Both the position numbers and the translations under genes were made by a program. A stretch of 64,000 bases of DNA from NCBI GenBank assembly GCA_017540175.1, contig JAFYBN010000054.1, forward strand, positions 44,390-108,389. Reading direction: 5' to 3'. Under the pieces are notes generated by a model. That model made no database searches, was not told the DNA's origin, and saw nothing but the letters and a program-made list of their open reading frames with translations. Source of the DNA: Clostridia bacterium. Lineage in GTDB: Bacteria > Bacillota > Clostridia > Oscillospirales > CAG-272. Below, piece after piece: positions 23,818-27,471 of the stretch (within the stretch, counting starts at the first letter, position 1; each line of letters begins with the position of its first letter).

Positions 23818-25020
23818 TCATCCTTCGCTCTGATTCCCCGCCGCTTCCGTCCCCTGCCGGACGCCGTACGCCTCCCGTACGACCTGCGGCAGGGACTCCG
23901 CGATGAATGCGCTCTGTGCGGCAGCCGTCCGCGCTTCGCTCAGAGTCCGGGGCAGTTTGCCTGTTTCCTCGTTTTCCTCAGGGAGCGCGAGTCCTTTTTC
24001 GATTCCCTTCAGCCCCGCCCGCACGAGGAGCGCGAAGGCGAGGTAGGGATTGGTTCCCGGATCGGGCGAACGCAGCTCCGCGCGGTGCGCTCCCGCGGGC
24101 ATATAGAGCAGCCGCGAGCGGTCCGTCCCCGACCATGCGATCCCTGCCCGGCGCCCGCCGAGCCTTTTGTAGGAATCCTCCGTCGGGTTGAGGAACGCCG
24201 TCATCGCCGCGATCCCGTCGAGGATCCCGGCCGCCGCGGCTCCGAGCGCCTCCCCCCGCGCCGTGTATCCTCCGAGGGACTCGAGGGAGAGATTGATGTG
24301 ACACCCGTTGCCGGGGCAGTCGGGGAGGGGCTTGGGGGAAAAGTCCGCCCAAAGCCCGTTCCGGTATGCCGCGGTCCGGACAACGGTCTGAAAGGTCATG
24401 GCGTGGTCGGCGGCCTCGAGCGCGTCCGAGAAGCGGAAGTCGATCTTGTTCTGACCGGGACCCTCCTCGTGGTGGGAGCTCGCGGGACGAATGCCCATCT
24501 GCTCCAGCGTCAGGCAGATTTCCCGCCGGATGTTCTCGCCCCGGTCCTCAGGCGCGAGGTCCATGTAGCCCGCGTGGTCGTAGGGGATCTTCGTGGGCTG
24601 GCCGTCCCCGTCGAGCCGGAACAGGTAAAAGGTCTGCTGCGCGCCGAAATGAAAGCGGAAACCCTTTTTCTCCGCGTCCTGCGCCGCCTCTCTGAGGAGG
24701 GATCGGGTGTCGGCGGGATGGGGCTTCCCGCTCTGCAGCGCGACGGTCGAATACATGCGCACGACCCGCCCGTGCTCCGGCCGCCACGGAAGAACGGAAA
24801 GCGTCGATGGATCGGGACAGAGCGTCAGACTGCCCTCCCCTTCATAACCCGGCACGGCGTCGGGATAGAACGGGATCCCCCCGTCGAACGCGCGCCCCAG
24901 CTCGTCCGGCATGACGGAAATGTTCTTCTGCCTCCCGCGGACATCGCAGAACGCGAGACGGATGAACTTCACGTCCTCCTCGCGCACGTATTCGAGAACC
25001 TCGTCTTTCGTATATTTCAT
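23818..25020 (-). CDS. glnA: Glutamine synthetase homologue with altered catalytic residues
   Basis: 400 residues from the ATG at 25020 (AAGGAG ahead). The overall fold is clear: N-terminal GlnA_N (KYTKDEVLEYVREEDVKFIR), then HHEEGPGQN, NGCHINLSLESLGG and AELRSPDPGTNPYLAFA. Compared with active type I enzymes, several metal or catalytic positions are changed. The segment usually reading ExEFFLF reads FGAQQTFYLF, so both Glu ligands are lost. The Glu of HHE...GQNE is Lys (GQNKID). The flap around the catalytic Glu is shortened to KRLGGRRAGIAWSG. The His of GCHINLS and the Glu of AELRSPDP remain. It may therefore be a poor or inactive synthetase kept as a glutamine sensor or regulator, or a relative with another substrate. 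The comparison is from memory of the family. Confidence 0.88.
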   Translation of the reverse strand: MKYTKDEVLEYVREEDVKFIRLAFCDVRGRQKNISVMPDELGRAFDGGIPFYPDAVPGYEGEGSLTLCPDPSTLSVLPWRPEHGRVVRMYSTVALQSGKPHPADTRSLLREAAQDAEKKGFRFHFGAQQTFYLFRLDGDGQPTKIPYDHAGYMDLAPEDRGENIRREICLTLEQMGIRPASSHHEEGPGQNKIDFRFSDALEAADHAMTFQTVVRTAAYRNGLWADFSPKPLPDCPGNGCHINLSLESLGGYTARGEALGAAAAGILDGIAAMTAFLNPTEDSYKRLGGRRAGIAWSGTDRSRLLYMPAGAHRAELRSPDPGTNPYLAFALLVRAGLKGIEKGLALPEENEETGKLPRTLSEARTAAAQSAFIAESLPQVVREAYGVRQGTEAAGNQSEG

Positions 25021-25065
25021 GACTGCTCCTTCCGCGCTCCGGAAACTCGTCCCGAAACGAATAAT

Positions 25066-25101
25066 GCGTTCATTCCGGCGCAAAAAAACCGGAATGAACG
25101 C
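25066..25101 (-). promoter_or_regulatory. Leader hairpin upstream of the glnA-like gene
   Basis: Perfect 13-bp inverted repeat GCGTTCATTCCGG/CCGGAATGAACGC (25066-25078, 25089-25101) with a 10-nt loop. It begins roughly 15-20 nt after the predicted transcription start. A second small hairpin (TTCCG/CGGAA) overlaps the ribosome binding site. The arrangement suits RNA-level control, possibly by the ANTAR protein. Confidence 0.6.
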
Positions 25102-25119
25102 CCTTGCTCATTTGTCTGT

Positions 25120-25148
25120 ATTATAGCGCGTTCCCCGCGCGTTGTCAA
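25120..25148 (-). promoter_or_regulatory. Consensus promoter of the glnA-ANTAR-guaA-pyrG run
   Basis: On the minus strand, perfect TTGACA (25143-25148), 17 bp, perfect TATAAT (25120-25125). The start codon is 100 nt further on, leaving a leader with the 13-bp hairpin. Confidence 0.85.
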
Positions 25149-25272
25149 GGGGAGGGAGGGAATTTCCCCGAAAAAAACGCGCGTGAAACGATATTTCGAA
25201 ATCCTTCTCTTCGCAACTTTTTTTCCGTGATAATTCGTTTCACGTGTGGTATCCTGTACGCATCGGAGGGTA

Positions 25273-25360: not shown

Positions 25361-25387
25361 CAGCCGATACAAGGAGGTGCACGCATC

Positions 25388-25657
25388 ATGAAAGCCTTTG
25401 TTCCCTATGAGAAGCTCTCAAAAAAGGCGAAGAGAGCGCTCGATCTCGAAAAGCGCAGGACATGGGGGTTCAGCCCCGTGACGCGCAGCCCGATGAGGAG
25501 CAGCGCTTACAACAGAAAGAAGACACGCCGCATGGATCTCGACGATCCGCCGGACGTGTCTTTTTTTCGGCAAAATGGGTACGCAGATCTTTCGGCAGGA
25601 AAGCCGACGCGCGGCAGCCGGGCAGCAGCCGGGCAGCAGCCGGGCGGCGCGGTTTGA
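25388..25657 (+). CDS. Small basic protein with terminator inside its reading frame
   Basis: 89 codons, ATG 9 nt after AGGAGG. The first 48 residues are strongly basic and look like a small conserved clostridial protein (MKAFVPYEKLSKKAKRALD, then PVTRSP and AYNRKKTRR); similar short proteins seem familiar from Oscillospiraceae, without known function. From codon 45 the frame runs through a strong intrinsic terminator (25520-25567), and the stop codon lies about 90 nt beyond it. Most transcripts would thus lack a stop codon. This resembles the control of the ribosome-rescue factors ArfA and BrfA, small basic proteins made from non-stop mRNA and degraded through tmRNA tagging. Homology to them is not claimed. 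The last 30 codons look non-conserved. Confidence 0.6.
   Translation: MKAFVPYEKLSKKAKRALDLEKRRTWGFSPVTRSPMRSSAYNRKKTRRMDLDDPPDVSFFRQNGYADLSAGKPTRGSRAAAGQQPGGAV
25520..25567 (+). terminator. Strong intrinsic terminator inside the small basic ORF
   Basis: AAGACACG (25520-25527) pairs with CGTGTCTT (25555-25562), extended by CCG/CGG with one bulged A. An inner stem GGATC/GATCC closes a 5-nt loop. The T-run covers 25561-25567. Confidence 0.85.
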
Positions 25658-26223: not shown

Positions 26224-26424
26224 CGCGGGGTCTCGGACCCCGATCACAAAATCATAGACCAACCTGCCCCGGTCGGGGTATGTTCTATATCTCAATCACA
26301 AAACTATATATCGACCGGCCCCGGTCGGGGGACGTTTCATGCCTCGATCACAAAACTGTACACCGACCGGCTCCGGTCGGGGTATGCCTTACACCTCGAT
26401 CACAAAACTGTACACCGACCGGCG
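26224..26424. repeat. Four tandem copies of a 52-bp unit over the 3' end of the sialidase-like gene
   Basis: The core (C)GATCACAAAA starts at 26241, 26293, 26345 and 26397, an exact 52-bp period. Each unit also contains CGACCGG..CCGGTCG, able to form a hairpin, except the gene-proximal copy. That fourth copy is the actual 3' end of the coding sequence (VYSFVIEV and stop). The others look like tandem duplications of it extending towards the NUDIX gene. Confidence 0.9.
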
Positions 26425-27471
26425 GTTTGCCGTGCAGGTCGCGTACAGCATTCCGTTCCCGTACACCGCCGCCGGATAGGAATACTCGCCCTCACCGCGC
26501 GCGAGATCGAGTTCACGCTTGAAGTGCCCGCCCCCGTCGGAGGAGACGAGCAGGGACAGCGGCGTCCGCGCGCCCCAGTTTGACCCCACCGGATTCATGA
26601 GCAGCGCGAGCCTTCCCCTACGATCCGGCAGCCCGCTGTTCGGCAGCCCGCTGTTCGGCAGCCCGCTGTTCGGCAGCCCGGTGTCCGTCGGCTCGGGGAT
26701 CATCACGCAGTCGATCCCGCTGTTGTTGTTCGGCAAAGGGGTCGGATACGCCCGGCTCCACCGCATCCCGACACCGTCGTCTCCCGCCTCGGGCAGAAGT
26801 TCCAAACAGTCCGCGCGCCAGATATGCCCCTCTGCCGAGCGCAGGAGGGCGTGGATCCCCGTGCCTGCCGTCCGAGCTTCTTCGGGATCGAAGAACAGGG
26901 TCGGCTGGATGAGCTTTACGGGGTATTCCGTTTCAAAATAAGGCGTGCGCGCAAAAGTCCGCCCGCCGTCGCGGGAGATTTCGACGAAAGCGCGCCACAC
27001 CGCCCCGTCCGGGCTTTCATGCGACGCCCCGGCGAGCAGGACGCCGTTTTCGAGCAGGATGGGCTTTGCGCGAACAGGCCCCCTGCCGCCGGAGAGGTCC
27101 CCGGGCACGAGCTCCCGCTCCTTGTCCCACGTCCTGCCCCCGTTCGCCGAGCGGCGCACAAAGGTCCGCCAGCCCGCGATTTTCCTGCCGCGCTTGAACC
27201 AGAGCGTCACGACTCCGCTTTGGGGATCGGCGAACAGAACGGGATTCCAGCACGCCTCGTCCGACGGAGAGGACATCATGACGGGGTCGCTCCAGCGTCC
27301 GTTCTCGCAGACCGCCGCGTAAATCTCCACGTCGTCCGCGCCCTCGCGCGAGCCGCCGAACCACGCCGCTATGCGCCTCCCGTCCGGGAGCAGGCAGACC
27401 GTAGACGCGTGACAGCTCCGCGTCGGCGCGTTTTCTTCGCTGAAAATCAGCCGTTTTTCGATCAGCTTCAT
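26389..27471 (-). CDS. Sialidase/BNR-repeat glycosidase-like protein
   Basis: 360 residues forming a six-bladed sialidase-like propeller. Visible Asp-box motifs are SANGGRTW (about residue 107), SRDGGRTF (about 168) and SSDGGGHF (about 310). CHASTVCLLPDGRRIAAWFGGSREG near the start matches the exo-sialidase-like BNR_2 group, in which an N-terminal Arg contacts the substrate carboxylate. No signal peptide, so cytoplasmic. True sialidase activity is not assured, since many members lack the Arg triad. An in-frame run of GLPNS repeats occurs near residue 265, encoded by 15-bp tandem units. The gene starts 15 bp before the 3' end of proC on the same strand, so they may be co-transcribed. Confidence 0.8.
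   Translation of the reverse strand: MKLIEKRLIFSEENAPTRSCHASTVCLLPDGRRIAAWFGGSREGADDVEIYAAVCENGRWSDPVMMSSPSDEACWNPVLFADPQSGVVTLWFKRGRKIAGWRTFVRRSANGGRTWDKERELVPGDLSGGRGPVRAKPILLENGVLLAGASHESPDGAVWRAFVEISRDGGRTFARTPYFETEYPVKLIQPTLFFDPEEARTAGTGIHALLRSAEGHIWRADCLELLPEAGDDGVGMRWSRAYPTPLPNNNSGIDCVMIPEPTDTGLPNSGLPNSGLPNSGLPDRRGRLALLMNPVGSNWGARTPLSLLVSSDGGGHFKRELDLARGEGEYSYPAAVYGNGMLYATCTANRRSVYSFVIEV
26626..26685 (-). repeat. 15-bp in-frame tandem repeat inside the sialidase-like gene
   Basis: CGGCAGCCCGCTGTT occurs three times (26626-26670) plus a degenerate fourth copy, encoding the pentapeptide GLPNS repeatedly in a surface loop. Confidence 0.95.

Follow-up and report, generated by a model that had tools for sequence, protein, structure and literature searches.

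The gene and its parts

The window analyzed here, a stretch of 64,000 nucleotides (nt) from a Clostridia bacterium (assembly GCA_017540175.1, contig JAFYBN010000054.1), contains a small open reading frame (ORF) that carries a predicted intrinsic terminator within its own coding frame, and this gene and its relatives are the subject of the present report (Table 1). A previous reading made from the letters of this DNA (hereafter the sequence-only reading) had described a small basic ORF with an intrinsic terminator ahead of its stop codon, and had put it forward as a possible clostridial equivalent of the ribosome-rescue factors ArfA and BrfA. The description is borne out: the stop codon starts (at 25655) 88 nt from the T run, and the 60-residue product predicted from the terminated mRNA is small and basic, with 16 Lys/Arg against 7 Asp/Glu and an isoelectric point of 10.5. 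RNA folding of positions 25500-25570 gave -28.2 kcal/mol with a z-score of -4.28, which none of 200 shuffles equaled; the hairpin was found by the folding scripts and is absent from the list of a simple consensus scan. The Gly-Gly-Gln (GGQ) motif is absent from both the window protein and the family consensus, and a Shine-Dalgarno-like motif is present at 102 of the 110 family loci retained below.

Table 1. Features of the terminator-containing gene, in window coordinates.
Feature	Position	Strand	Description or basis
Whole ORF	25388..25657	+	89 codons plus TGA, ATG start
Shine-Dalgarno sequence AAGGAGG	25371-25377	+	Sequence, upstream of the ATG
Terminator hairpin within the coding frame, codons 45-58	25522-25560	+	Folding
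T7 tract, exactly seven T, directly after the hairpin	25561-25567	+	Sequence
Predicted terminated-mRNA portion, codons 1-60, basic product	25388..25567	+	Hairpin position and composition; predicted transcript end
Non-conserved frame past the terminator, probably seldom transcribed	25568..25654	+	Conservation near zero
In-frame stop TGA past the terminator	25655-25657	+	Sequence
Weak -10-like TATCCT, promoter uncertain	25250-25255	+	Sequence; not listed by the simple consensus scan

Conservation of the internal terminator

The sequence-only reading had suggested that homologs be checked for a terminator inside the frame. The check began with 120 loci, from which L001, L002, L006, and L007 (repeats of other loci) and six exact duplicates were dropped, leaving 110; contig ends truncate L010, L038, and L087, so that 107 loci, a set biased towards the relatives of the window gene, could be assessed. 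A strict rule was applied, which required a free energy of -16 or lower, at least six contiguous outer pairs, and a T-rich tail, and the controls were the last 95 coding nt of 354 mechanically called ORFs of at least 100 amino acids from the same contigs. A terminator by this rule lies at the same place in 94 of the 107 family members, compared to 8 of the 354 control ORFs. Ten rounds of synonymous recoding yielded 4, 4, 11, 1, 3, 2, 4, 3, 2, and 6 of 107 (mean 4.0). A first, looser rule had a higher background (51/354 controls and 26-40/104 recoded genes, with 94/104 observed), and was replaced because it was judged too loose as a control.

A hairpin with a T-rich tail falls within gene nt 110-213 at 97 of the 107 loci. 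The stop codon lies more than 8 nt past the hairpin in 85 of these, 5-7 nt past it in nine, and before it in three, two of which are copies with early in-frame stops. Among the ten loci without a match, five (L052, L055, L077, L115, and L116) show, by eye, a hairpin with a weak T tract. Each of seven outer stem positions is occupied by GC, CG, AT, and TA pairs across the loci. This rebuilding of pairs, together with the control and recoding counts, indicates that the hairpin itself is maintained, within a maintained protein. The design in which the terminator precedes the stop codon is thus confirmed in the window and exceeds chance. At L023 and L091, early in-frame stops suggest that the genes are decaying, and the hairpin is still visible.

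The same structure could be a compact intergenic terminator, perhaps working in both directions in the window, that merely overlaps the 3' end of a gene whose protein has another RNA or ribosome job and whose non-stop mRNA is unexploited. The next gene in the window is convergent, the hairpin is also followed by a T-rich stretch on the opposite strand, and in the nine homologs with a stop just 5-7 nt past the hairpin some transcripts might include it. However, such an overlap was found in just 8 of the 354 control ORFs, the stop is more than 8 nt away in 85 of the 107 loci, and the downstream gene is co-directional in 44 of 105 loci (convergent in 61), making this explanation improbable.

Conservation and spread of the protein

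The family consensus is MEKFIPYEKLSKK..RE.....R.TWG...PVTR.P.NPKAYNRKK, with a charged N-terminal stretch, invariant R23 and W26, and a basic region around positions 41-48. Column information for 108 loci is high through Y-x-R-K-K and near zero right after the hairpin, and hence the region past the predicted transcript end is not conserved. The median ratio of nonsynonymous to synonymous substitution (dN/dS) was 0.13 at a median dS of 1.17, as calculated from 358 pairs with 70-97% protein identity and dS below 2; the protein is under purifying selection.

The genome of the window carries a single copy. The proportion of genomes with a relative was 7/25 in the genus, 42/394 in the order (E <= 0.01), 7/391 in the class, and 7/398 in the phylum, the window's own genome being counted each time. 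A scan of named contigs returned 279 relatives, and the best 80 of the 279 are all titled Clostridia or other Bacillota, nearly all of them metagenome bins. Pfam (up to E 10), NCBIfam, and PHROGs gave no match for the window protein; weak library matches of its relatives (Flavodoxin_5, E 0.13; NF047776, E 0.17; phrog_18524, E 0.034) were taken as chance. A description of the family was not found in the literature searched, a coverage that excludes preprints and most subscription papers. By these comparisons the proteins appear to form an unnamed family.

Genomic context and linkage to RNA repair

In the window, both flanking ORFs lie on the opposite strand, and are glutamine-synthetase-like (upstream) and NUDIX-like (downstream), as named from their translations. 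Across the family, the first neighbors fall into 189 groups, the largest of which has four members. A short ORF ending in a terminator would also be expected of a leader peptide that attenuates the next gene; since the neighbors are unshared, their strands mixed, and the downstream gene often convergent (61/105, window included), the family gene is not an attenuator. Purifying selection on the protein argues against this explanation as well, and it was rejected as barely credible. A structured 5' leader was likewise rejected, given a fold z-score of -0.25 and only short chance matches to the leaders of homologs. Searching the window against Rfam gave nothing at gathering scores.

The largest first-neighbor group is the RNA ligase RtcB, identified by Pfam for six copies (five plus one) and by similarity for the remainder. 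For a wider view we collected 59 regions, extending up to 8 kb on each side of profile matches across genus, order, class, and phylum; weak or partial matches in G299 (three), G325, G872, and G947 were left out, and a second match in G819 was left untyped. RtcB occurs within 8 kb in five of these regions (G187, G166, G356, G265, and G764), where about 0.07 would be expected by a rough estimate, which takes RtcB as present in 17 of 77 genomes, assumes a 2.5-Mb genome, and ignores kinship. A broad group of ATP-binding cassette transporters, a very common family, and a module of the stop-codon form described below recur more often than RtcB in this set (9, 9, and 7 genomes). In G356, the genes for RtcB, RlaP, a CCA-adding enzyme, and the family protein follow one another on one strand. 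Among the 80 named-contig loci, four have RtcB nearby (L082, L087, L092, and L110, the first three being close relatives), as does the family copy in two records of the phage collection (L169 and L170). The RtcB-linked copies with a terminator in frame are L028, L033, L082, L092, L110, L131, and L169; those with a stop codon and no such terminator are L170 and L199; L038 and L087 are truncated at contig ends. Separately, a viral contig of 29 kb carries a terminator-type copy with a RlaP gene (L155:1668-2420) 1.6 kb upstream of it.

Such linkage could mean that the protein is a partner in RNA repair, e.g., of RtcB, or a binder of damaged ribosomes, controlled by transfer-messenger RNA (tmRNA) through its non-stop mRNA without itself promoting peptide release. 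The five RtcB regions, the operon of RtcB, RlaP, and the CCA-adding enzyme, and the stop-type phage copies would fit this proposal. However, 25 of the 35 family-positive genomes have no RtcB, which argues that the protein does not depend on it, and we regard this role as unlikely. The weak co-occurrence of the family and RtcB at genome level implies that the linkage concerns a minority of copies; the co-occurrence was excluded from the support.

Three features of the surrounding DNA are recorded in their own right. The leader of the glutamine-synthetase-like ORF 23818-25083 contains, on the reverse strand at 25066-25148, a perfect TTGACA-17-TATAAT motif and after it a palindrome of 14 bp whose T tail is weak; an operator or attenuator is possible. 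At the 3' end of a sialidase-like ORF (26389-27471, reverse strand), positions 26238-26423 hold three direct-repeat copies spaced at 52 nt; every copy contains a palindrome rich in G+C, and the arrangement resembles a repeated gene end. The same ORF has a short in-frame repeat, NSGLP, three times at about 26620-26680.

Terminator-type and stop-type forms

In the 59 regions, the hairpin is within the ORF in 30 copies, the stop follows it by at most 8 nt in 5, the stop comes first in 6, a hairpin is missing in 16, and a contig end cuts the remaining 2; the hairpin thus comes before or at the stop in 35 of the 57 copies that can be assessed. A tree was built from 134 short rows, in which the branch of the window gene comprises 110 rows (support 89/83), of which 95 have the hairpin, 10 do not, and 5 are from phages; rows outside this branch are mostly stop-type. 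The labels of the two forms are clustered on the tree (18 changes compared to 32.0 in shuffles), on which many forks are open and the bootstrap is not settled. These labels were taken from the loose rule, and hairpin copies with a weak T tract, as well as the cut copy L087, were scored as non-hairpin.

The stop-codon form without an internal terminator occupies a deeper branch and most large viral contigs. Of 25 viral contigs, 12 have the hairpin within the ORF; in another 7, judged by eye, there is a hairpin whose T tract falls short of the rule, and the remaining 6 lack a hairpin and end at a stop of their own (L162, 54 kb; L164, 207 kb; L165, 127 kb; L166, 126 kb; L167, 180 kb; L168, 202 kb). 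L268 (61 kb) and the 12-kb record L170 are likewise stop-type. At least nine viral contigs of 50 kb or more carry a relative; among those listed, seven are stop-type, L163 (52 kb) is terminator-type, and L189 (52 kb) has a divergent frame. Searches of phage records returned two matches for a stop-type protein, one for a terminator-type protein, and none for two large-phage copies, and plasmids gave no match to the one stop-type protein used as query. A ClpP relative resembling a head protease is encoded a few genes from the family gene in L164, L166, and L168, and a phage-type single-stranded DNA-binding protein nearby in L165. The recurring stop-type module (L230, L232, L234, L235, L237, L238, and L245) consists of a helix-turn-helix gene and genes for a 213-residue and a ~140-residue protein, the latter starting within or adjoining the family gene. 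An integrase gene is near one stop-type copy and a Mu-Gam-like gene near another.

The expectation of an in-frame terminator in the homologs mostly held for the window's own branch (94/107 by the strict rule). Copies with the stop before the hairpin, which the sequence-only reading had named as a refutation, do exist. As these copies are found mostly in another branch and in phages, the non-stop design is a property of one large branch rather than of the whole family.

A toxin-like or growth-arrest effector, released only upon failure of trans-translation, could use the same wiring, which would expose any protein when tmRNA fails, and some stop-type copies are near restriction, Fic, and helix-turn-helix genes. 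The neighbor analysis, which did not include a PADLOC search, revealed no recurring antitoxin-like partner beside terminator-type copies, and we view such an effector as very unlikely.

Trans-translation and release factors in carrier genomes

The window's genome encodes both SmpB (197.9 bits) and tmRNA (152 bits). Its two GGQ proteins, with frames of 445 and 375 residues, were read as release factors RF1 and RF2, and a short ArfB-like GGQ frame was not found there. GGQ frames shorter than 320 residues were also absent from 76 other genomes of the order. The 76 genomes of this search and the 77 of the RtcB comparison were hand-picked and mostly at least 90% complete; they include 34 of the 41 other order genomes with a family match, and leave out G059, G082, G132, G187, G284, G299, and G325. 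The missing short frames agree with the absence of ArfB from Firmicutes, as stated in the available portions of two reports (PMC11633108, PMC6514570).

Proposed mechanism and its weighing

A terminator ahead of the stop, together with relatives beside RNA-repair genes or in large phages, suggests that this gene of gut Clostridia probably encodes a backup factor that frees stuck ribosomes. Transcription would end at the hairpin and the T7 tract, a step strongly supported by the comparison of homologs, and most mRNAs would stop inside the ORF near codon 60. Since ribosomes at a truncated mRNA end are non-stop complexes, the product would be tagged and destroyed by tmRNA-SmpB, both genes for which are present. 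If trans-translation were overwhelmed or blocked, the basic protein of ~60 residues should survive. By analogy with ArfA and BrfA, it may bind to non-stop ribosomes at their vacant A site, its basic end lying in the mRNA channel. Having no GGQ of its own, it would recruit a release factor, RF2 being the likeliest, for freeing the peptide. The copies beside RtcB or RlaP and those in phages probably serve the same purpose when host RNA or ribosomes are cut, and the stop-codon copies would escape control by tmRNA.

Several results weigh against this interpretation. The family is patchy even within the order and genus (42/394 and 7/25 genomes), and in the wider sample a terminator before or at the stop is missing from 22 of the 57 copies that could be assessed. 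RtcB was found in 10 of 35 family-positive compared to 7 of 42 family-negative genomes; the window copy has no RtcB nearby, the RtcB gene of its genome being on a different contig. The PDB gave no match, either by sequence or by family profile (profile E <= 10). No homology to ArfA was detected (hhalign probability 0.6%, in addition to the empty Pfam search), and the Lys-His motif in the C-terminal tails of ArfA and BrfA, K49-H50 in BrfA, is not conserved in the family columns (108 loci).

Taken together, we assign a probability of about 0.72 to the interpretation that the gene encodes a backup ribosome-rescue factor silenced by trans-translation and working like ArfA and BrfA. The proposal of the sequence-only reading is thus supported and probably right, with a predicted activity, on the evidence of RtcB or RlaP beside some copies, tmRNA and SmpB, two long GGQ proteins and no ArfB-like one, and purifying selection. 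The main additions to it are the linkage of some copies to RtcB and RlaP, and the division into two forms: one is chromosomal and predicted to be silenced by tmRNA, the other has a stop codon and is found on mobile elements, in a single RNA-repair operon, and in the majority of the large viral contigs. More tentatively, and at slightly less than even odds, the proteins may constitute a further, independently evolved rescue family encoded by non-stop mRNA, of which there would be two forms. One would be chromosomal in Clostridia and silenced by tmRNA because of its internal terminator. The other, with a stop codon and free of tmRNA, would reside on mobile elements, in an RNA-repair operon, and in large phages of gut Clostridia, and would keep the ribosomes active when tRNA or rRNA is cleaved by host defences. 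If this were true, the rescue factor of the host would have a phage-borne counterpart that is independent of tmRNA.

Comparison with known rescue systems

ArfB (YaeJ) is a backup to tmRNA with a basic tail. It carries its own GGQ domain, whereas the family protein has no GGQ. PrfH, according to the parts of two reports available to us (PMC6514570, PMC9223846), is a rescue release factor thought to serve damaged ribosomes and encoded in rtcB-prfH operons, and like the present family it occurs beside RtcB, sporadically, and in conflict-related loci. PrfH is a release hydrolase, whereas a family protein without GGQ would need a borrowed release factor. RNA repair is described as common in jumbo phages in the accessible text of another report (PMC7824862).

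The closest parallel in design is BrfA (YqkK) of B. subtilis, for which the available text of the original study (PMC6881298) reports by experiment a terminator inside the ORF, a product that accumulates when smpB is mutated, and release that depends on RF2. Like the window family, BrfA is Gram-positive, small, and basic, with an intrinsic terminator within its ORF; production from non-stop mRNA and repression by trans-translation are reported for BrfA (PMC6881298, same portions) and predicted for the family. The layouts are also alike, with an N-terminal helix, R25, F31, and a basic segment at 48-55 in BrfA compared to a charged N-terminus, R23, W26, and a basic segment at 41-48 in the family; this comparison is not a homology test. 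The family profile retrieved nothing from PDB sequences, among which the presence of the BrfA chain is unconfirmed, and an approximate BrfA sequence matched nothing. BrfA has been reported only in some Bacillaceae. ArfA of E. coli is likewise small and basic, is produced from non-stop mRNA, and is kept silent by trans-translation. What we claim is a similar function, not that the family belongs to ArfA or BrfA.

ArfA-like factors have been reported, in the sections available of one survey (PMC11633108), only in some Proteobacteria and ten species of the B. subtilis group. This narrow range, together with the reported lack of ArfB in Firmicutes, points to a gap concerning how Clostridia cope when trans-translation fails, and a family with the non-stop signature would fill it. 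Such a family would show this feedback design again, with no kinship to ArfA detected, and would tie non-stop rescue to RNA repair by RtcB and perhaps to phage counter-defence.
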